From: an uncultured Lachnospiraceae bacterium
GTDB taxonomy: Bacteria; Bacillota; Clostridia; Lachnospirales; Lachnospiraceae
Direction: 5' to 3'
Assembly (NCBI GenBank): GCA_902803635.1
Contig: CADCQU010000157.1
Location: 1 to 17,507, forward strand
Length of the DNA: 17,507 nucleotides
How positions within the stretch are numbered: position 1 is the first letter of the stretch; the number at the start of each line of letters is the position of its first letter. A program made the translations under genes and the position numbers. The notes beneath the pieces were generated by a model that had not been told where the DNA came from, did no database searches, and saw only the letters and a program-made list of their open reading frames with translations. Positions 6,159 through 16,512 of the stretch are shown here, piece by piece.

Positions 6159-7226
6159 ATGTACCGCGAACATACGAAAGCAATCCGGATTGGGGACCGC
6201 TTTATTGGAGGGGGGCACCCGATTACGGTGCAGTCGATGACAAATACGAAGACAGAGGATGCGGAGGCGACGATTGAGCAGATTCTCCGACTGGAGGAGG
6301 CGGGCTGCGAGATTATCCGAAGCACCGTGCCCACCATGGAGGCGGCCGAGGCATTTGCCAAGATCAAGAAGGCCATCCATATCCCGCTGGTTGCGGACGT
6401 GCACTTCGACTACCGGCTGGCGGTCGCGGCGATTGAGAACGGGGCGGACGGCATCCGCATCAATCCCGGCAACATCGGCGGGCCGGAGCGGGTACAGGCC
6501 GTGGTGGCCGCCGCGAAGGAGCGGGAAGTCCCGATTCGCGTGGGGGTGAATTCCGGCTCGCTCGACAAGCGGCTCGTGGAGAAGTACGGGCGCGTGACGC
6601 CGGAGGGGCTGGTGGAGAGCGCCCTGGAGAGGGTGCGGATGATCGAGGATTTCGACTATGACCGCATGGTCATCTCGATTAAGTCCTCCGATGTGCGCCT
6701 CGGGGTGGCCGCGCACGAGCTCATCGCGAAAATGACCGATTACCCGCTCCATGTGGGGGTTACGGAGGCCGGCGGGCTCTTTGCCGGGGCTATCAAGTCG
6801 GCGGTCGGCATCGGGCTTATTCTGAACCAGGGCATCGGCGACACGATCCGCGTCTCGCTCACGGGCGACCCGGTGGAGGAGGTGCGGGCCGGAAGGCTGA
6901 TCTTGAAGTCCCTGGGGCTTCGCAAGGGCCAGGTCGAGGTGGTTTCCTGCCCGACCTGCGGGCGGACGCAGATTGACCTCATCTCGCTGGCCGGGAAGGT
7001 AGAAAAGATGGTCGCACCGATTCAGGCGGATCTCAAGGTCGCGGTCATGGGCTGTGTCGTGAACGGGCCCGGCGAGGCCGCCGAGGCGGATCTCGCGGTT
7101 TGCGGCGGGAAGGGCGAGGGGCTCATCCTGAGGCGCGGCGTGGTAATCCGAAAGGTCGCGGAGGAGAGCCTCCTGGAGGCATTCCGTGAGGAGCTGGAAA
7201 AGATACTTTCGGAAGAGAAGGAGTGA
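6159..7226 (+). CDS. ispG: 4-hydroxy-3-methylbut-2-enyl diphosphate synthase (IspG/GcpE)
   Basis: A 355-aa cytosolic iron-sulfur enzyme of the MEP pathway, converting methylerythritol cyclodiphosphate to HMBPP with electrons from flavodoxin or ferredoxin. The N-terminal TIM barrel begins with GGGHPITVQSMTNT and contains VADVHFDYRLA and GIRINPGNIG. The [4Fe-4S] ligands are Cys264 and Cys267 (SCPTCGRT) and Cys299 (MGCVVNGPGEA) with Glu306. Length fits the short bacterial form. AGGAGG lies just before the ATG. In many Firmicutes ispG stands directly before polC, often after dxr and rseP; here that ispG-polC pair is kept (7-nt gap) but the upstream neighbours are thyA and folA. Confidence 0.97.
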   Translation: MYREHTKAIRIGDRFIGGGHPITVQSMTNTKTEDAEATIEQILRLEEAGCEIIRSTVPTMEAAEAFAKIKKAIHIPLVADVHFDYRLAVAAIENGADGIRINPGNIGGPERVQAVVAAAKEREVPIRVGVNSGSLDKRLVEKYGRVTPEGLVESALERVRMIEDFDYDRMVISIKSSDVRLGVAAHELIAKMTDYPLHVGVTEAGGLFAGAIKSAVGIGLILNQGIGDTIRVSLTGDPVEEVRAGRLILKSLGLRKGQVEVVSCPTCGRTQIDLISLAGKVEKMVAPIQADLKVAVMGCVVNGPGEAAEADLAVCGGKGEGLILRRGVVIRKVAEESLLEAFREELEKILSEEKE

Positions 7227-7233
7227 GGTGTGA

Positions 7234-10200
7234 ATGGCAGGAGAAGGCAGAAGATTTTTTGAAGTGTTTCCGAAATTGACGCTCCCGGAGAAAATCCGGG
7301 AGCTTTTCGACCAGGTGCTGGTTGTGAAGGTGATCAAGAATTCGCGGACAAATGTCCTGAAAATTTATGTCGCCTGCGAGGATTGGATTAAGAAAGAGCA
7401 TTTTTATACGGTGGCGGGGGAGATTGAGAAGCAGGTCTTCCCGCGGAGCGGGGCGAAGGTGCAGCTTCTGGAGCGGTTTCATTTGTCGTCGCAGTACAAC
7501 CCGCAGAACTTCTACAAGGTCTACCGCAAGAGCATGGAGGCGGAGCTGGAGATGGTCAGCCCCCTCACGGCGCTTCTTTTCCGGCATTCGGAACTGCTTT
7601 TTCCGGAGCCGGACTGCATCGAGGCCCGCATTCCGAGCAACGATGTCCTGGCGGATCGTGCCACGGAGCTTTTGGAGTACATCGAGAAGGTATTTGTCGA
7701 GCGGGCCGGCTTCGGGCGGTGCCAGGTCACGATGACGCTTTTTGAAATCGACCGGAAGGCTCTCTTTGCCGAGGACAGGGCGAAGATCGAGAGCCACGTC
7801 GACGCCATCGTGCGCCGCGCGAAAAAGCGGGCGGAGGAGAAGCCCAAGGAGGAGGAGAAGCTGCCGACTCCGGAAAAGCAGCACCGGCAGGCCAAATTTG
7901 CCGTCACGAAAGACCCGGACCTCATCCTGGGGCGGCCCTTTGACGATCCGCCGGTCCCGATGGACAGCCTTGGCGAGGACCCGCACGAGGTGGTGGTCCG
8001 CGGCGAGATTTTCGACATTACGACCAAGGAGATGAAGAACGGGAAGATGATCATCATGGTCGCGCTCACGGACCATACGGACAGCATCCGCATGAAGCTC
8101 TGGGCCGAGCCCAAGGAGATGGACAAGTACATGGAAATCCTCAAAAAGGGGAGGTGGCTCATCGTCAAGGGCCGCATGGATTTCGACCGCTACGAGAAGG
8201 AGATCATGATCAACACCGTCTACTCCGCCAAGAGGTCCGCGCCCGACATTTTCAGCCGGATCGACGACGCCCCGAAAAAGCGTGTCGAGCTCCACTGCCA
8301 CACGAAGATGAGCGACATGGACGCGGTCTCCTCGGCGACGGAGATCATCGGCCAGGCGAAGGACTGGGGCATGACCGCCCTCGCCATCACCGACCACGGC
8401 GTGGTCCAGGCTTTCCCGGAAGCCCATCACGCGGCTCCGGAGACCGGCGATTTCAAGGTAATCTACGGCTGCGAGGGCTACCTCGTGGACGACGAGGTGC
8501 AGATCGTGACGGGTCCTGCGGACAAGGAGGCAAATGCCCCCGCCGTCGCCTTTGCGCTGACGACGACCGGTCCGGGGCCGAGCCGCTCGGACATTGTGGA
8601 AATCTCCGCCGTGCGCATCGTGGACGGGCGCATTTGCGAGACCTTTTCCACCCTTGTAAACCCCGAAAAGCCCCTGCCATTTGCCTTCCGGAAGGAGACG
8701 CGGATTACCGACGAGATGACGGCGGCCGCGCCAAGGCTCGCCGACGCATTCCTTGCATTTGCCGAGTTCTGTTCGGACGCGGTGCTCGTGGCCTTTGACG
8801 CGGAAATGCAGGCTGCCTTCCTGCGGGCGGCGGAGGAGAAGTGCTTCCCGGGCGCGGGAAGCCTCTTCGGGGAGGGGCGGACGCTCGCCGACCTTCCTGC
8901 GATGGTGCGCTACCTCCTCCCGCAGACCAGCCGGAACAGCCTGGAAAAGCTGGCCAAGAGCCTGAAAATCCCGCTCGACGACCCGGCGCGTTCCGCGTCC
9001 CGGGCGCGGGCCACGGCGGAGGTCTACCTGCAGCTCCAGAAGGAGATGAAGAAGGCTGAGCTCTTTACCTTCGAGGAGCTCAACAAAAAGGGCCTCATCT
9101 CCGAGGAGCGCATCCGGAACCTCCCGTACTATCACATCATCCTCTTGGTAAAGAACGAGGCGGGCCGGCGGAACCTCTACACGATGGTCTCGGAGTCGCA
9201 CCTCCGCTATTTCAAGAAGCGTCCGCGCATCCCGCGCTCGCTCCTCAAGGCCCACCGCGACGGCATCGTGGTCGGCTCGGCCTGCTCGGCAGGCGAGCTC
9301 TACAAGGCCGTGCTGGAGGAGAAGAGTACGGCGGAGATCGAGAAGATCGTCCGCTTCTATGACTATCTGGAAGTCCAACCGGTAGGAAATAATGAATACA
9401 TGGTGCGCGAGCACGACCATGGGATCCAGAGCGACGAGGATTTGCGGGAAATCAACCGGAAGATCGTGCAGCTCGGGGAGATTTACGACAAGTCCGTCGT
9501 CGCGACCTGCGACGTGCATTTTCTGAATCCGGGGGACGCCATTTACCGCTCCATCATCCAGTCGGGCCACGGCTTCAAGGACGAGGGGCAGCCGCCGCTC
9601 TACCTCCATACCACCGGGGAAATGCTGGAGGAATTTGCCTACCTCGGGAAGGAGAAGGCCTTCGAGATCGTGGTGGAAAATTCGAACAAAATCGCGGATA
9701 CCATCGAGAAGATCTCGCCGATCCATCCCGACAAATGCCCTCCGGTCATCGAGAACTCGGACACGGAGCTGGAGGAGATGTGCTATGCCACGGCGCGGTC
9801 CATCTACGGCGAGAACGTCCCCGAGCAGGTGACCTCGCGCCTTAAGAAGGAGCTGGGCTCGATCATCAAGAACGGGTACGCGGTCATGTACATTATCGCG
9901 CAGCGCCTCGTGCAGAAATCGCGCGAGGACGGCTACCTCGTCGGTTCCCGCGGCTCGGTCGGCAGCTCCCTCGTCGCCACGATGTCCAACATCACCGAGG
10001 TGAACCCCCTGCCGCCGCACTATCTCTGCGGCAAATGCCACTTCGTGGATTTCGATTCCCCGGAGGTGAAGGCCTACGGCGGCCGCTGCGGGGCGGACAT
10101 GCCCGACCGCAAATGCCCGGTCTGCGGAGAGCCTTTGAAAAAGCTTGGCTTTGACATCCCCTTTGAGACGTTCCTTGGCTTCAAGGGCGACAAGGAGCCG

Positions 10201-11622
10201 GACATCGACCTCAACTTCTCGGGCGAGGAGCAGACCGTCGCCCAGAACTACACCGAGGTCATTTTCGGCAAGGGCCAGACCTTCAAGGCCGGTACTATCG
10301 GCACGGTGGCCGAGAAGACGGCAGTCGGCCTCGCCGCGCACTATTTCGAGGAGAAGGGCATTGCCAAGAAGCACTGCGAGCTGGAGCGGCTCTCGAAGGG
10401 CTGCGTCGGCGTGCGCCGGACGACCGGCCAGCACCCCGGCGGGGTCATCGTGCTCCCGAAGGGCATGGACATCAACTGGTTCACGCCCGTCCAGCACCCG
10501 GCCAACGACATGACCTCGGATGTCATCACGACGCATTTCGACTACCACTCCATCGATCGGAACCTTCTAAAGCTTGACATCCTCGGCCACGATGATCCGA
10601 CCATCATCCGTATGCTGGAGGACCTTACCGGGACGAACCCCCTGGAGGTCCCGCTCGACGACCCGGGGGTCATTTCCCTCTTCTCCGGGACGGAAGCCCT
10701 CGGGGCGACCCCGGAGGAGATCGGCGTCGACCTCGGCGTCCTCGGCGTGCCCGAATTTGGCACGAAGTTCGTCATGCAAATGCTCCGCGAGACGAAGCCG
10801 AAGTCGCTCTCGGAGCTCGTCCGCATTTCCGGGCTTTCGCACGGGACGGACGTGTGGACTAACAACGCGCAGGAGTACGTAAAAAACGGGGACTGCACGC
10901 TCTCGACGGCCATTTGCACGCGGGACGACATCATGATCTACCTCATCGCCTGCGGGGTCGAGCCGGAGCACTCCTTCAAGATCATGGAGGGGGTCCGCAA
11001 GGGCAAGGGCTTAAAGCCGGAGCAGGAAGCGGAGATGCGGGAGCACAACGTCCCGAACTGGTACATCGAATCCTGCAAGAAGATCAAGTACATGTTCCCG
11101 AAGGCCCATGCGGCGGCCTATGTCATGAACGCCTTCCGCATCGCCTACTACAAGATCAACTACCCGCTCGCCTACTACGCGGCCATGTTCTCCATCCGCG
11201 TGACGACCTTCGACTACGGGACGATGGCCCTCGGGCGGAATGTGCTGGAGGAGGCCGCACGGGCAATCCAGGAGAAGGAGGAGCGCTCGGCGAAGGAGGA
11301 GGAGACGCTCAAGGACATGATGATCGTGCGGGAAATGTACGGCCGGGGCTTTACCTTCCACACGCTCGACCTTGCGAAGGCCGACGCGCTCCGCTTCACG
11401 GTTCTGGATGGCAAGCTCATGCCGTCCATCAACTCCATCCAGGGCCTCGGGGAGACCAATGCGAAGGCCATCGCCGCCGAGGTGAAAAAGGGACCCTTCC
11501 TCTCAAAAGAGGAGTTCCGCACCCGCACCCGGTCCTCGACGACGATCACCGACCTTCTGGAAACCTACGGGATCCTCGGTTCCCTCCCCGAAACCAACCA
11601 GCTCAGCTTTGATTTTGCGTGA
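7234..11622 (+). CDS. polC: DNA polymerase III alpha subunit, PolC type, with inactivated exonuclease domain
   Basis: A 1462-aa replicative polymerase of Gram-positive type (B. subtilis PolC is about 1440). In order: N-terminal domain (1 to about 200), a charged linker, an OB fold (about 250-340), PHP part 1 (HCH 354-356, TDH 386-388, YGCE with Glu414), an inserted DEDD-type exonuclease domain (about 430-610), PHP part 2 (DVH 760-762), then the polymerase. The polymerase has GSRGSVGSS (904-912), Cys932/935/961/964 zinc knuckle, catalytic Asp990 and Asp992 in PDIDLNFSG, and GQHPGGVIVLP. The C-terminus has a clamp-binding type motif QLSFDF (from Gln1456). The exonuclease lacks every catalytic residue: DVETTG is ALTTTG (Ala441, Thr443), HNxxFD is FDAEMQ (Gln526), and HRAxxD is SRARAT (Ser589, Thr594). 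Polymerisation should work; proofreading by this domain should not. Last gene of the operon; no clear terminator follows. Confidence 0.98.
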   Translation: MAGEGRRFFEVFPKLTLPEKIRELFDQVLVVKVIKNSRTNVLKIYVACEDWIKKEHFYTVAGEIEKQVFPRSGAKVQLLERFHLSSQYNPQNFYKVYRKSMEAELEMVSPLTALLFRHSELLFPEPDCIEARIPSNDVLADRATELLEYIEKVFVERAGFGRCQVTMTLFEIDRKALFAEDRAKIESHVDAIVRRAKKRAEEKPKEEEKLPTPEKQHRQAKFAVTKDPDLILGRPFDDPPVPMDSLGEDPHEVVVRGEIFDITTKEMKNGKMIIMVALTDHTDSIRMKLWAEPKEMDKYMEILKKGRWLIVKGRMDFDRYEKEIMINTVYSAKRSAPDIFSRIDDAPKKRVELHCHTKMSDMDAVSSATEIIGQAKDWGMTALAITDHGVVQAFPEAHHAAPETGDFKVIYGCEGYLVDDEVQIVTGPADKEANAPAVAFALTTTGPGPSRSDIVEISAVRIVDGRICETFSTLVNPEKPLPFAFRKETRITDEMTAAAPRLADAFLAFAEFCSDAVLVAFDAEMQAAFLRAAEEKCFPGAGSLFGEGRTLADLPAMVRYLLPQTSRNSLEKLAKSLKIPLDDPARSASRARATAEVYLQLQKEMKKAELFTFEELNKKGLISEERIRNLPYYHIILLVKNEAGRRNLYTMVSESHLRYFKKRPRIPRSLLKAHRDGIVVGSACSAGELYKAVLEEKSTAEIEKIVRFYDYLEVQPVGNNEYMVREHDHGIQSDEDLREINRKIVQLGEIYDKSVVATCDVHFLNPGDAIYRSIIQSGHGFKDEGQPPLYLHTTGEMLEEFAYLGKEKAFEIVVENSNKIADTIEKISPIHPDKCPPVIENSDTELEEMCYATARSIYGENVPEQVTSRLKKELGSIIKNGYAVMYIIAQRLVQKSREDGYLVGSRGSVGSSLVATMSNITEVNPLPPHYLCGKCHFVDFDSPEVKAYGGRCGADMPDRKCPVCGEPLKKLGFDIPFETFLGFKGDKEPDIDLNFSGEEQTVAQNYTEVIFGKGQTFKAGTIGTVAEKTAVGLAAHYFEEKGIAKKHCELERLSKGCVGVRRTTGQHPGGVIVLPKGMDINWFTPVQHPANDMTSDVITTHFDYHSIDRNLLKLDILGHDDPTIIRMLEDLTGTNPLEVPLDDPGVISLFSGTEALGATPEEIGVDLGVLGVPEFGTKFVMQMLRETKPKSLSELVRISGLSHGTDVWTNNAQEYVKNGDCTLSTAICTRDDIMIYLIACGVEPEHSFKIMEGVRKGKGLKPEQEAEMREHNVPNWYIESCKKIKYMFPKAHAAAYVMNAFRIAYYKINYPLAYYAAMFSIRVTTFDYGTMALGRNVLEEAARAIQEKEERSAKEEETLKDMMIVREMYGRGFTFHTLDLAKADALRFTVLDGKLMPSINSIQGLGETNAKAIAAEVKKGPFLSKEEFRTRTRSSTTITDLLETYGILGSLPETNQLSFDFA

Positions 11623-11693: not shown

Positions 11694-14600
11694 ATGACGA
11701 TGCGAACAGGGGAGAAGGATACGGAGCTGCGATGGCAGACGGCGGGGGAGCTTTCCATCCAGCCGGAGCGGCTTGTGCTTAGCTGCGAGACGGGAGAGGT
11801 CTCGGCAGGCGAGGTGATTCTCCGTGCGCCGGAAGGCGTACGGATTATTGGCTATGCCTTCGCGTCCCTGCCCAGGCTTTCCGCAAGCCCCTCGGAGTTT
11901 TCGGCAAATACCGTCCGGCTTCTGATCCGCGTGGATACGACGGGAATCCCCGTCGGCGGGGTCGTGCAGGGGCTTGTGACCCTCTCGACAAATTTGGGCG
12001 AGTACGACATCCCGGTGGAGCTTTCGAAGGTCGCCCCGATGGCCCGTTCGTCTTCTGGGCGGCGGATTCGGAACCTTTCGGACTTCGTGCGCCTTGCGAA
12101 GGACTCCTACGAGGAGGCCTTCCGCTTCTTCTCGGGGAAGGAATTTGCCCGGATCCTTGCGACCGAGGCACCGCAGAAGAAGACGCTCTACGAGGCCCTT
12201 GTCTCCCCGCCGGTCACCTACCACCGGATGGAGGAGTTCCTTATCGCCTGCGGCCTGAAGGATCCTGTCATCGTCACCGCCGAGTCCAAGGGCGCATCCT
12301 TCTTCAACATCCGGGAGGACCGCCAGGAGACCCTGACGCTCAAGAAGAGCGAGTGGGGTTCGGTCAAGCTGGAGGCCGAGGTTTCGGGGAGCTTTTTAAG
12401 CCTTCCGAAGACGCGCGTCGTCAGCGAGGATTTCGTGGGGTCGGTCTGTGAATTTGCCTACATCATCCACCGGGGCGAGCTTTCGCACGGGAAGAATTCC
12501 GGCACCATCACCCTCCACTCCTTCTATTCCACCGTGACCTTCCATGTCACCGCCTCCTGCGAGGGGGCTTTGGAGATCGACCGCAATCTGGCGGAGCGCC
12601 GCGGAATGCTGGGCCTTGTGCAGGCGTACATCAACTGGCGTCTCGGGGAGTCGGACGACGGCTCGTTCCGTGACAAGAGCTTTTCCGCGCTCAATACGCT
12701 GCGCGACCTCGGCGGAAGGAGCATCCCCTACAGCCTCTACGAGGCCTTCGTGGAGGAGATGACCGGCAACCGCGAGAACGCCCTCCGCGTCCTTACGGGC
12801 ATCTCCCCGGAGGCGATGAAGGGGGAGCCGCTCGAGTACAGGGCCGCCTACCTCTACCTTGGGCAGAAGACGGGCTTCTTTGCCCCGGAGAGCGTGGACG
12901 TGGTGAACCGCATTCGCGACTGGCAGCGGCGGCAGCAGGATAACCTTTTGCTCCTCATGGTCTGGCTCCGCACGGATCCGGATCTTGCCCGTATGCCCGC
13001 AAGGAAGCTGGAGGCTTTGGAGAACGCGTTCGCGCGCGGGAAGCGCAGCCCCCTCATTTACCTCGACGCGGCGGAGCTTTTCCGAAAGGACGAGAAGCTT
13101 CTGGTACGGCTCTCGCCCTTTGCGCAGCAGGTGCTGCATTTTGCGGCGAAAAACCACTGGCTGACCCGTGACCTTGCCCGCCGGACGGCCTTCCTCGCCG
13201 GAAACGCGAAGGAGTTCTCGGAAAAGGTCCTGCGGCTTTTGGAGACCATCTACGGGCAATTTGCCGAGGACGAGGTGCTGGAGGCCATTTGTAAGATCCT
13301 CATCAAGGGCAATCCGCGCAAGGACATCTATTTCCGCTGGTACGAGCGCGGGGTCGAGCGGGACATCCATGTCACGCGCCTTTATGAATACTTCATGGAG
13401 ACCATGCCGGAGGACTACCAGCGGGTGCTCCCGCCGGCCGTTCTCCGCTACTTCCTCCTTGCGAACAACCTTTCGGACTACCGGAAGGCCATGCTTTATG
13501 CAAATGTCATCCGCAACCGCAACAAGGACCGCGAGACCTACGAGGCCTACCGGCCCAAGATGGAGGCATTTGCCGCGTCGGCAGCGGCAAATGGCCGGGA
13601 GAACCGGCATTTTGCGGTCATTTGCCAGGAATTTATTGACAAATTGCCGGAGGGGCGGGCGGGCGAGAGCCTTGCGCGGGCCCTCTTTGCCGAGCGCATT
13701 TACACGGACGATCCCCGGATCCGCGAGGTCATCGTGCGCCACGGCGGGCTTCTCAGGGAGGAGGTCGTCGCCGTGTACCGCGGGGAGGCCTACGTCCACC
13801 GGTATACGAAGGATGCCTGCATTTTGCTGACGGACGGCAAGGCCCACCGCTACTACAACGCGGTGGAGTATTCGGCGGAACCCCTGATGGACCGGGAGGC
13901 GCTGCTGAAGGACGTGGACGCGTCCCGCTACGCGGTTCCGGGACTCTGGCTGCACGTCGCGGCCCCGGAGGGGGAGCTTCTTCCGGCGACGGAGGAGACA
14001 GCTCCCGTCTATGCGCGGATTGCCGCGTCGCAGGCCTTTACGGCGGCCTTCCGCAGGGCGGCGGAGAAGGAATTTTTCACCTACCTTGCGAGGGAGCCGG
14101 AGGACGGGCGTTTTGACGGTCTGCTCGCGACCTACACGGGCTCGCTTGCGGGCGGGGAAGGCACGCTGCCGGAGGATCCCGCGGTCGTGGCCGAGATTCT
14201 TCTCCGCCGCGGCTATTGTAAGAACGCCTTCAGCCTTCTTCGGAGCATCGGCTTTGAAAATGCGGACCCGGAGCTGCTCCTCAAGGTGGCGGTCAGCCGT
14301 ATCGCCTACGTGAAGGAGGCACCGGATCCGGACACCCTCTTCATTGCACGGGCGGTGTTCCAGGGAGGTGTCTATGACGAGACGGTGCTTCGGTATCTCT
14401 GCCGGCATTTCGACGGCCCGCTCGATACCCTTTTGGCGGTCCGCAGGGAGGCAAATGCCGCTGGCGTCGAGACGGTGGAGCTTGACGGCCGCATCCTCCG
14501 GCGGGCGGTCCTGACCGGGCGGCGGATCCCGGAGTTCGGGAAGGTCCTGGGGCATTTTGCCGCTGCCGGCGGGGAGAGGAGCACCACCGAGGCCTACCTC

Positions 14601-15269
14601 ACCTTCGAGGCGCGGCTCTGCTTTGGCGGGAGCGTGACCATCAGCCGCGAGGCGGCGGATTTGATTGCCGAGTCCGTGGAGGAGGGACGCGGGCAGGAGT
14701 TTATCCGGAAGCTTTCTCTTCTATATTATTATGCGCGGAAATCGCGCCTAACGCTCCGCGAGGAGAATCTGGCGGACAAGCTCCTGGAGGAGTGCGCGCT
14801 GCGGAACATTCGCTTCAGCTTCTTTAAGGATCTTCCGATTGACCTTGTTTTACAGTACCATCTGGAGGACCGGGCCTTTGTCGAATACCGGGCGGAACCC
14901 GGGGATCTCGTGATCCTGCACTACCGACTCGGCCGGCCCGGCGCGGAGGGGGAGGAGAAGGAAGAGCCGCTTAGGGAGATGTATGCGGGAATCTTCTCGA
15001 AGGAGTTCGTGCTTTTCTACGGGGAGGAGCTGAGATGGTACGTCACGGTCCGCCACGAAGGGGCGGAACGGCGCACGAAGACGAGGACGCTCACCATGGC
15101 CAACGTGGACATGGAGGGGCGGAGCCGCTACCAGCTCATCAACCAGATGCTCCGCGCCTACGCGACGGGGGACGAGCAGGAGCTTCGCGAGCGGATCCGC
15201 GACTTCCGGCAGTCCGAGAGGATGGTGGAACGGCTGTTCGTGCCTGTGGAGGGAAAAACGCATGAATGA
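11694..15269 (+). CDS. Large cytosolic multi-domain protein, DUF5717-like (function unknown)
   Basis: 1191 aa with no signal peptide or membrane segment. Residues about 15-110 look like an Ig/MSP-type beta-sandwich (alternating strands ending VDTTGIPVGG...LSTNLGEYDIPV). A second, similar sandwich lies at about 205-295 (WGSVKLEAEVSG...FVGSVCEFAYIIHRGEL). Residues about 300-1030 are mostly amphipathic helices resembling irregular TPR/HEAT-type repeats, interrupted near 690-780 by a strand-rich part. Residues about 1040-1150 are strand-rich again (EYRAEPGDLVILHYRL, FSKEFVLFYGEELRWYVTV). The arrangement and neighbour match what I recall of DUF5717 proteins of Lachnospiraceae; that family name is from memory. 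It overlaps the next gene by 8 nt. It is probably a scaffold or client-binding partner of the Hsp70-like neighbour (inference). The start could also be the ATG two codons later. Confidence 0.85.
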   Translation: MTMRTGEKDTELRWQTAGELSIQPERLVLSCETGEVSAGEVILRAPEGVRIIGYAFASLPRLSASPSEFSANTVRLLIRVDTTGIPVGGVVQGLVTLSTNLGEYDIPVELSKVAPMARSSSGRRIRNLSDFVRLAKDSYEEAFRFFSGKEFARILATEAPQKKTLYEALVSPPVTYHRMEEFLIACGLKDPVIVTAESKGASFFNIREDRQETLTLKKSEWGSVKLEAEVSGSFLSLPKTRVVSEDFVGSVCEFAYIIHRGELSHGKNSGTITLHSFYSTVTFHVTASCEGALEIDRNLAERRGMLGLVQAYINWRLGESDDGSFRDKSFSALNTLRDLGGRSIPYSLYEAFVEEMTGNRENALRVLTGISPEAMKGEPLEYRAAYLYLGQKTGFFAPESVDVVNRIRDWQRRQQDNLLLLMVWLRTDPDLARMPARKLEALENAFARGKRSPLIYLDAAELFRKDEKLLVRLSPFAQQVLHFAAKNHWLTRDLARRTAFLAGNAKEFSEKVLRLLETIYGQFAEDEVLEAICKILIKGNPRKDIYFRWYERGVERDIHVTRLYEYFMETMPEDYQRVLPPAVLRYFLLANNLSDYRKAMLYANVIRNRNKDRETYEAYRPKMEAFAASAAANGRENRHFAVICQEFIDKLPEGRAGESLARALFAERIYTDDPRIREVIVRHGGLLREEVVAVYRGEAYVHRYTKDACILLTDGKAHRYYNAVEYSAEPLMDREALLKDVDASRYAVPGLWLHVAAPEGELLPATEETAPVYARIAASQAFTAAFRRAAEKEFFTYLAREPEDGRFDGLLATYTGSLAGGEGTLPEDPAVVAEILLRRGYCKNAFSLLRSIGFENADPELLLKVAVSRIAYVKEAPDPDTLFIARAVFQGGVYDETVLRYLCRHFDGPLDTLLAVRREANAAGVETVELDGRILRRAVLTGRRIPEFGKVLGHFAAAGGERSTTEAYLTFEARLCFGGSVTISREAADLIAESVEEGRGQEFIRKLSLLYYYARKSRLTLREENLADKLLEECALRNIRFSFFKDLPIDLVLQYHLEDRAFVEYRAEPGDLVILHYRLGRPGAEGEEKEEPLREMYAGIFSKEFVLFYGEELRWYVTVRHEGAERRTKTRTLTMANVDMEGRSRYQLINQMLRAYATGDEQELRERIRDFRQSERMVERLFVPVEGKTHE

Positions 15270-16512
15270 AGTGAGAAATGTCCTGGTCGGCTTTGTCCTG
15301 GGGCGGGAGGAGTCGCAGATCAGCTACTACGACCGCCGCGCGGGACAGCCGGTGCAGGTACCGACCAAGCTGGGCACGAACCTTTTTAGCTTTCCGACGG
15401 CCATCGCGAAGATCCGGGGGAAGGAGGAGTGGCATTTTGGCCATGAGGCTGCCTTCGCCGGACGTGAAAAGGACGGGGAGGTCGTCGAAGGGCTCTACGA
15501 CATTTTCTGCCAGAACACGCCGGTGTGGGTGGACGGGAAGGATGTCAGCCCCGTGGATTTGCTGGCCATTTATCTGCGGCAGGCCCTTGCCCTTTTGGGA
15601 CTCCGCGACATTTTGCGGAGCATTTCCTGCATCATGTTCACGACGGAGGAGCTCTCCGAGGGCTTTGTACGCAATCTCCGGGCTGCCCTCCTTAACATCG
15701 GTTTTTCGCCGGAACAGTTCGGGCTGCAGGATTTTATGGAGAGCTTCTACCACTATACTTTTCGCCAGTCCGAGGATTTCTTTCTGGCAAATGTCGCCCT
15801 CTTCCTTTTTAAAGGGAACCATGTGGAGCTTCGGCTTCTCGTGGAGGACAAGGGCGTGCGCCCGCACACGGTGATGGTGGAGCGGCTGCCGGGCGTGGAG
15901 CTGCCCGAGGAGAAGGAAGCCCGCGATGAGGCTTTCTACAGGTATGCGAAGAAGACATTTGATGAAGTGCGAATATCCGGTGTTTTCATTTGCGGGGAAG
16001 GCTTTGACACGGAGTGGTCGGAGATCTCGCTTCCCTTCCTGCTTTCCAACCGCCGGCGGGCCTTCTATGGGGACAACCTCTTCGTGGAAGGGGCCTGCTA
16101 TGCGGCCGTGGAAAAGAAGGAGCGCCGGAAGCTCCGGCTGCGCCAGTACGTCTCCGATTCCATGGTGCGCGTTGGCGTTGGCATGGACATGCTTTTGCGC
16201 GGAAACCCGACGTACTATCCGCTGATCGGTTCGGGCATCAACTGGTTCGAGGCCGAGGAGTCCTGCGAGTTCCTGCTCGACGGCCGCGACTTTTTGCTCT
16301 TCTCCCTCCGCTCCATAGACGGGAAGAACCGCAGCAGTCGGCAAATGCCTCTGCCGGGTCTTCCAAGCCATCCGGATTTCATGACGCGCATCCGTCTGTC
16401 GGCGCGGTGCCTGTCGCCGGAGGTCTGTGAGATTGTCGCCGAGGACCTTGGTTTCGGGGGCTTCTTCCCCTCCACGCACAAGGTCTGGCGGGAGGAGCTG
16501 GAGCTTTTGTAA
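15262..16512 (+). CDS. DUF5716-like protein with degenerate Hsp70/actin-like architecture
   Basis: 416 aa, no signal or membrane segment. The order of elements follows an Hsp70 ATPase domain. VLVGFVLGREESQISYYD (from residue 7) resembles phosphate loop 1 but with Val12 for the essential Asp. FSFPTAIAK and HFGHEA resemble PSVVAF/VGEEA. SPVDLLAIYLRQAL and an IMFTTEEL...FVRNLRAALLNIGF segment resemble the following helix and crossover. LFLFKGNHVELRLL (180-191) stands where phosphate loop 2 (DLGGGTFD) would be. GVFICGEGF (240-248), then RAFYGDNLFVEGACYAA, resembles the adenosine motif and following segment. If the fold is right, nucleotide hydrolysis is doubtful. The start has GGAGGG 8 nt upstream. 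I recall DUF5716 beside DUF5717 in Lachnospiraceae. The gene call is certain; the fold is my inference. Confidence 0.85.
   Translation: MNEVRNVLVGFVLGREESQISYYDRRAGQPVQVPTKLGTNLFSFPTAIAKIRGKEEWHFGHEAAFAGREKDGEVVEGLYDIFCQNTPVWVDGKDVSPVDLLAIYLRQALALLGLRDILRSISCIMFTTEELSEGFVRNLRAALLNIGFSPEQFGLQDFMESFYHYTFRQSEDFFLANVALFLFKGNHVELRLLVEDKGVRPHTVMVERLPGVELPEEKEARDEAFYRYAKKTFDEVRISGVFICGEGFDTEWSEISLPFLLSNRRRAFYGDNLFVEGACYAAVEKKERRKLRLRQYVSDSMVRVGVGMDMLLRGNPTYYPLIGSGINWFEAEESCEFLLDGRDFLLFSLRSIDGKNRSSRQMPLPGLPSHPDFMTRIRLSARCLSPEVCEIVAEDLGFGGFFPSTHKVWREELELL

Follow-up and report, generated by a model that had tools for sequence, protein, structure and literature searches.

In canonical PolC, here represented by the E. 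faecium (9QPC) and G. kaustophilus (3F2B) enzymes, a DEDDh-family exonuclease sits within the PHP domain and keeps its catalytic residues. The Asp and Glu of motif I are present in wild-type E. faecium PolC, and the authors of a D431A+E433A mutant, in which both are replaced, call it exonuclease-inactivated (PMC12592400). In most clostridia three sites are putatively active in proofreading, namely the PHP sites of PolC and of DnaE1 and the DnaQ site of PolC (PMC12926913), so that loss of the DnaQ site would leave two. For the PolC-type replicase the same source states that the PHP site, not the DnaQ site, is the inactivated one. It also describes retained DnaQ-like domains with a dead 3'-5' exonuclease in many Pol I orthologs, PolA2/APEX and PolB2, polymerases tied to repair or translesion roles. 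PolCs without the exonuclease insertion were reported in 2013; they make up 6% of PolC, occur in Clostridia and Negativicutes with one exception in Thermotogae, and are paired with DnaE1 (PMC3919608). Mycobacterial DnaE1 proofreads through a zinc PHP site; in PolC the exonuclease is inserted in a loop adjoining this site, and M. tuberculosis DnaE1 has a loop of 29 residues at that position (PMC5636811).

We analysed a stretch of 17,507 nucleotides from an uncultured Lachnospiraceae bacterium, referred to as the window. It carries polC (7234..11622, + strand), which encodes the PolC-type alpha subunit of DNA polymerase III in a single unbroken open reading frame of 1462 aa. The product matches two NCBIfam equivalogs, NF001688 (1576 bits, cut-off 873) and TIGR01405 (1455 bits, above the cut-off), and has the Pfam domains PHP, DNA_pol3_alpha, finger, HHH_6 and OB in PolC order. 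Both catalytic aspartates of the palm, D990 and D992 (10201..10209, +), are retained. The first half of the PHP domain (aa 350-425; 8281..8508, +) keeps the ligands H354, H356, D363, H388 and E414, and the second half (aa 625-770; 9106..9543, +) keeps H634, C684, D760 and H762, giving a complete set of nine metal ligands (motif HHDHEHCDH). A preliminary description of the locus had reported the intact frame, the palm aspartates and part of this PHP set, all correctly. In domain order, PHP site and palm aspartates the window enzyme is like canonical PolC. Immediately 5' of polC lies ispG (6159..7226, +; NF001540, TIGR00612), and 3' of it are two large genes of unknown function, DUF5717 (11694-15269, 1191 aa) and DUF5716 (15262-16512, 416 aa). 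A PolC search of the source genome (G000) gave one PolC match, with DnaE1-like matches on separate contigs.

At the same place as in 9QPC, the PHP domain of the window PolC holds a DnaQ-like (DEDDh-family) domain (aa 436-604; 8539..9045, +). It is matched by PF00929 over aa 444-597 with 51-54 bits, and the enzyme is thus not of the insertion-lacking type. Its catalytic columns were read from a MAFFT alignment of the window PolC and 257 further PolC rows and, independently, from a HMMER alignment to E. faecium PolC 9QPC; the two readings agreed. The five columns contain DEDHD in 219/258 rows of the MAFFT alignment. In contrast, the window PolC keeps none of the five residues. Motif I reads A441-L442-T443 (8554..8562, +) where canonical PolC has D-x-E, Q526 (8809..8811, +) replaces the Asp of motif II, and in motif III (A585...R590; 8986..9003, +) A585 and R590 take the places of the His and Asp of H-R-A-x-x-D. 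Loss of all five had been proposed in the preliminary description, which named A441, T443 and Q526 correctly; its motif III residues, S589 and T594, were misaligned, the true equivalents lying four residues upstream. The motif I replacements coincide with the two positions mutated on purpose in the E. faecium enzyme (PMC12592400). Together, these residues support the prediction that the exonuclease domain is catalytically dead.

The window genome is a draft of 411 contigs, and an assembly, sequencing or alignment artefact was therefore considered. We searched 42 genomes of the genus including that of the window, one per species, and found a PolC match in 42/42. All five columns were readable in 37 genomes, of which 31 keep none of the DEDDh residues and six keep one. 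None is kept in G003, whose sequence was read in two pieces, and one is kept among the three readable positions of G009; for G008, G038 and G040 the contig found does not include the exonuclease region. Among distinct own-genus rows of the MAFFT alignment (n=31), 26 have 0/5 residues and five have 1/5. L037 (UBA3689) has a PolC identical to that of L027 (= G007). The dead state is thus found in 36 other genus genomes, one per species, including the single-contig genome G001 (L032), and a separate database has it in its protein clusters P0002-P0004. Because at most one of the five residues is present in all 37 readable genomes, and two alignment methods concur, an artefact is not supported and can for practical purposes be dismissed. 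Loss of the DEDDh catalytic residues throughout the readable genus, and its recurrence in the family, is solid.

We also asked whether other acids could have rebuilt an active site that still cuts, with D453, E488, D522, E526 and D553 as candidates. Several of these are conserved as new acids in the genus (D453 in 87%, E488 in 94%, D522 in 84% and E526 in 61% of 31 rows). However, both motif I acids are gone in 35/37 genus genomes, L027 and L032 retaining the Asp only, the motif III Asp is replaced by Arg in 90%, and the window itself carries Q526 rather than E526. The loss of both motif I acids is also what was called exonuclease-inactivating in the E. faecium double mutant (PMC12592400). Judged from the conserved columns, an alternative acidic site is very unlikely and was dropped.

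Outside the genus, 197 further genera of the family were surveyed with one genome apiece; an additional genome, G193, had no match at 1e-60. The DEDDh site is active in 185 (G157 counted as active from two contigs), dead in four (G071, G121, G175 and G225), and the domain is missing in eight. These eight genera (L354-L361) fall into at least three separate tree groups. Both states also occur within single genera: genus g104 has a match in 29/31 genomes, with 22 active, six dead and one unreadable, and in the genus of G175 2/3 genomes are active. Searches at the level of the order and the class gave 52 and 76 matches; among the best-scoring 56 further loci, 51 of them outside the family, 56/56 were active. 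For 17 of the order- and class-level matches listed, the alignment starts no earlier than about residue 603-633, and these PolCs may be without the domain. The PolCs of g104 (L384, L387, L388, L390, L395 and L396) form groups on very long branches, exo-active and exo-dead alike, and several exo-active members also align to the window PolC with a break near residue 777-783.

Phylogenies were built from PolC. On an IQ-TREE phylogeny of the PolC body minus the exonuclease (56 hand-chosen rows, short search), no fewer than 11 changes are required to explain the active/lost label, and at least nine are forced by starred branches, counts that alone cannot separate loss from regain. The forced changes argue that DEDDh loss is tolerated repeatedly. 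The eight own-genus rows formed one clade with full support on this tree, on which the outgroup row L295 was misplaced. A FastTree phylogeny of 377 rows contained nine dead clades and 11 dead-or-deleted clades, with the own-genus rows within one. Grouping the own genus with G175 and two dead g104 species was rejected (p-AU 1.5e-6), the grouping having been picked after the tree was seen. Loss within the genus is most simply explained by a single event in its ancestor, as seen from alignment and tree. In G071 the dead domain is also shortened (126/168 columns filled); FastTree places it among three exo-less genera with a support of 0.997, a position suggesting that catalytic death preceded deletion. 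On IQ-TREE the grouping is unresolved and also includes one active row.

Does the dead domain still fold? An AlphaFold model of aa 346-772 had a mean pLDDT of 89.5, with values of 86-98 across the exonuclease. Its best PDB match in Foldseek was 9QPC, spanning PHP and exonuclease throughout (TM 0.88, 425 columns), and 2P1J and E. coli epsilon were matched as well, confirming that the PolC insertion has a DnaQ/RNase-T fold. When polymerase distance is equal, the domain differs at 0.45-0.55 per site between dead PolCs vs 0.28-0.40 between active ones, and the PHP halves are not faster. For dN/dS we used pairs selected by low polymerase divergence, which are few, at six per class. The domain gave 0.06-0.25 in the dead pairs, and its medians were 0.13 in dead and 0.043 in active pairs; the corresponding values were 0.042 and 0.024 for PHP and 0.043 and 0.021 for the polymerase. 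With less strict selection (197 dead pairs), where synonymous sites are saturated, the medians were 0.33 for the exonuclease, 0.14 for PHP, 0.12 for the polymerase and 0.33 for the N-domain; our conclusions rest on the close pairs and not on this set. The mean GC3 of polC is 0.74 in the genus vs 0.53. Selection on the dead domain is relaxed yet constrained. The earlier reading of a dead exonuclease, as opposed to gene decay, is borne out by the genus-wide replacement, the open frame, the folded model and a dN/dS well below 1, with inactivity deduced from the residues. Whereas the variants reported in 2013 are missing the domain, the window PolC has kept it, folded and under purifying selection, without its catalytic residues. 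In E. coli, epsilon contributes to structural integrity and processivity, functions separable from proofreading (PMC4478557), and by analogy a scaffold role may be envisaged for the dead PolC domain.

With a dead domain throughout the genus and several further losses in its relatives, these bacteria probably correct copying errors in another way. The preliminary description had named the PHP site, a separate exonuclease or mismatch repair as possible substitutes. All nine PHP ligands are kept in 40/41 distinct dead PolCs, the 41st (L352) being a fragment that keeps its four readable ligands, and in 8/8 PolCs without the exonuclease domain, so that the complete set is retained in each of the 48 distinct PolCs, dead or without the domain, in which nine ligands can be read. 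The ligands are also intact in 327 active rows, and such retention is therefore expected even without compensation. The nine-ligand site of the window PolC resembles that of M. tuberculosis DnaE1 (PMC5636811), with the difference that PHP activity has been demonstrated for the DnaE enzyme and is predicted for this PolC. By motif position, D760 corresponds to D226 of M. tuberculosis DnaE1, and D226N abolishes the PHP exonuclease activity of that enzyme, which is inhibited by millimolar Mg (PMC5636811). In the alignment, E. faecium PolC has N at the D760 position and is a mirror case of the window enzyme; its exonuclease-inactivated DEDDh mutant hence says little on PHP activity here. To our knowledge, no exonuclease activity has been demonstrated for the PHP site of any PolC. 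The partner polymerase also keeps its site, as the PHP ligand motifs of DnaE1 were present in 20/20 congeners read, 18 of which fit one strict combined pattern. Judged from these residues, compensation by PHP appears the likeliest step; the intact ligands of PolC may instead only stabilise the fold, and editing may be done by the partner DnaE1 or by a nuclease outside PF00929.

Two attempts to find a stronger PHP signal were abandoned. Y632, the Tyr two residues before H634, is fixed in the own genus. It also occurs in four further lineages that lost the exonuclease (L326, L352, L357 and L359), compared with 5/330 active PolCs read. It was dropped as a convergent PHP change because equally strong shared changes exist in the polymerase domain, and a scan for changes common to the exo-lost lineages, with random active sets and other domains as controls, showed no enrichment of PHP over the polymerase domain. 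The idea that PHP and exonuclease are never both lost was likewise set aside as proof: an altered PHP motif was found in eight active-exo rows vs 0/55 complete exo-lost rows (48 distinct), with a Fisher p of 0.61, duplicates and related rows included. The eight PolCs with intact DEDDh and an altered PHP motif, which belong to the same family and mirror the window case, are L328, L336, L344, L346, L348, L353, L364 and L368; one ligand is altered in L348 and more in the other seven.

A stand-alone exonuclease could proofread in trans, the candidates being a DEDD protein of KapD-like type and a DnaQ that escaped recognition. The window genome encodes a 322-aa DEDD protein (L002) with weak likeness to KapD (50 bits, cut-off 169), most congeners have matches of similar length and profile range (L002 being the one example inspected), and some carry further DEDDh proteins. 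However, matches of equal length and range are also present in active-PolC relatives, so the KapD-like type was not gained with the loss. Moreover, 13/18 good genomes have no PF00929 match beyond PolC and the KapD-like type, and G022 (98% complete) has none at all. An extra stand-alone DnaQ as a common feature was not found with PF00929 across the genus and 22 relatives, a search whose reach excludes unrelated nucleases. On PolC itself PF00929 scored 28-56 bits or gave no match in congeners. The score was 125-138 bits for 19 relatives with an active PolC and 97 bits for the dead G175 PolC, and neither of the exo-less genomes tried (G199 and G076) had any match. We consider proofreading in trans improbable. 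Of the substitutes proposed in the preliminary description, the PHP ligands and mismatch repair genes are retained, whereas a widespread added DnaQ was not found.

MutS scored above the cut-off in 37/42 genus genomes, with fragments in the remaining five, and MutL likewise in 37/42, the other five being drafts. Their retention in most congeners would also fit a replicase with no effective proofreading, in which polymerase selectivity and mismatch repair suffice and a higher mutation rate is tolerated. The dead domain should indeed yield no DEDDh editing, and the root-to-tip length in the midpoint-rooted PolC tree is 0.62 for the own genus vs 0.52. On the other hand, g104 has dead and active PolCs both on long branches, so that branch length does not track loss, and the dead state persists through a genus whose PolCs differ at up to about half of their residues. 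In B. subtilis, the strongest mutators, with neither PolC proofreading nor MutL function, were selected against, which is not reported for loss of proofreading alone (PMC11890065). We regard this alternative as rather unlikely, if less so than proofreading in trans.

The explanation that we favour, and hold with moderate confidence, is that DEDDh proofreading was lost, that the zinc PHP site of PolC and/or DnaE1 carries fidelity together with MutS/MutL, and that the domain persists as a scaffold. The PolC of the genus ancestor would have lost its catalytic residues, with inactivity following from those replacements. We propose that the domain is under the observed purifying selection because a structural job remains for it, for which candidates would be to serve as a wall of the DNA channel on the PHP side or to place the polymerase correctly on DNA. 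Mismatches at the 3' end would be edited at the zinc PHP exonuclease sites seen in PolC and/or its partner DnaE1, and the MutS and MutL encoded in these genomes would clear remaining errors. The replicase would then act like the PHP-proofread mycobacterial DnaE1, having returned from the DEDDh exonuclease to the zinc site, the older of the two. A wider proposal is more speculative, and we offer it as possible rather than probable: clostridial PolC could revert to zinc PHP, leaving the main replicase with this one editing site, repeatedly in one family, with the dead domain reused as a non-catalytic element of the PHP editing channel and then deleted in some lineages.

In the titles and abstract openings searched, which left subscription journals and preprints largely outside, we found no description of a PolC exonuclease that is retained and dead. 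The earlier impression of novelty holds for this retained state; it does not extend to loss of the DEDDh proofreader in PolC, which is not itself new given the insertion-lacking PolCs reported in 2013 (PMC3919608), a type that likewise has no DEDDh proofreading and also occurs in the eight genera here. The vestigial DnaQ-like domains of other polymerases (PMC12926913) are retained and dead in the same manner; unlike their repair and translesion hosts, the window PolC is an essential replicase. The family shows the reverse of the direction stated for PolC several times, even among congeneric species (in g104 and in the genus of G175). Such sister pairs offer a natural experiment that bears on whether PolC edits DNA through its PHP site, on the mutation-rate cost of living without DEDDh proofreading and on the path of the domain from enzyme to scaffold to deletion. 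Separately, short PolC-like proteins of 790 and 925 aa (L441:2762-5134 and L442:1113-3890) are encoded alongside a normal PolC in Lachnospiraceae G020 and G044, and in the L441 protein the DnaQ-like domain precedes PHP rather than lying within it.
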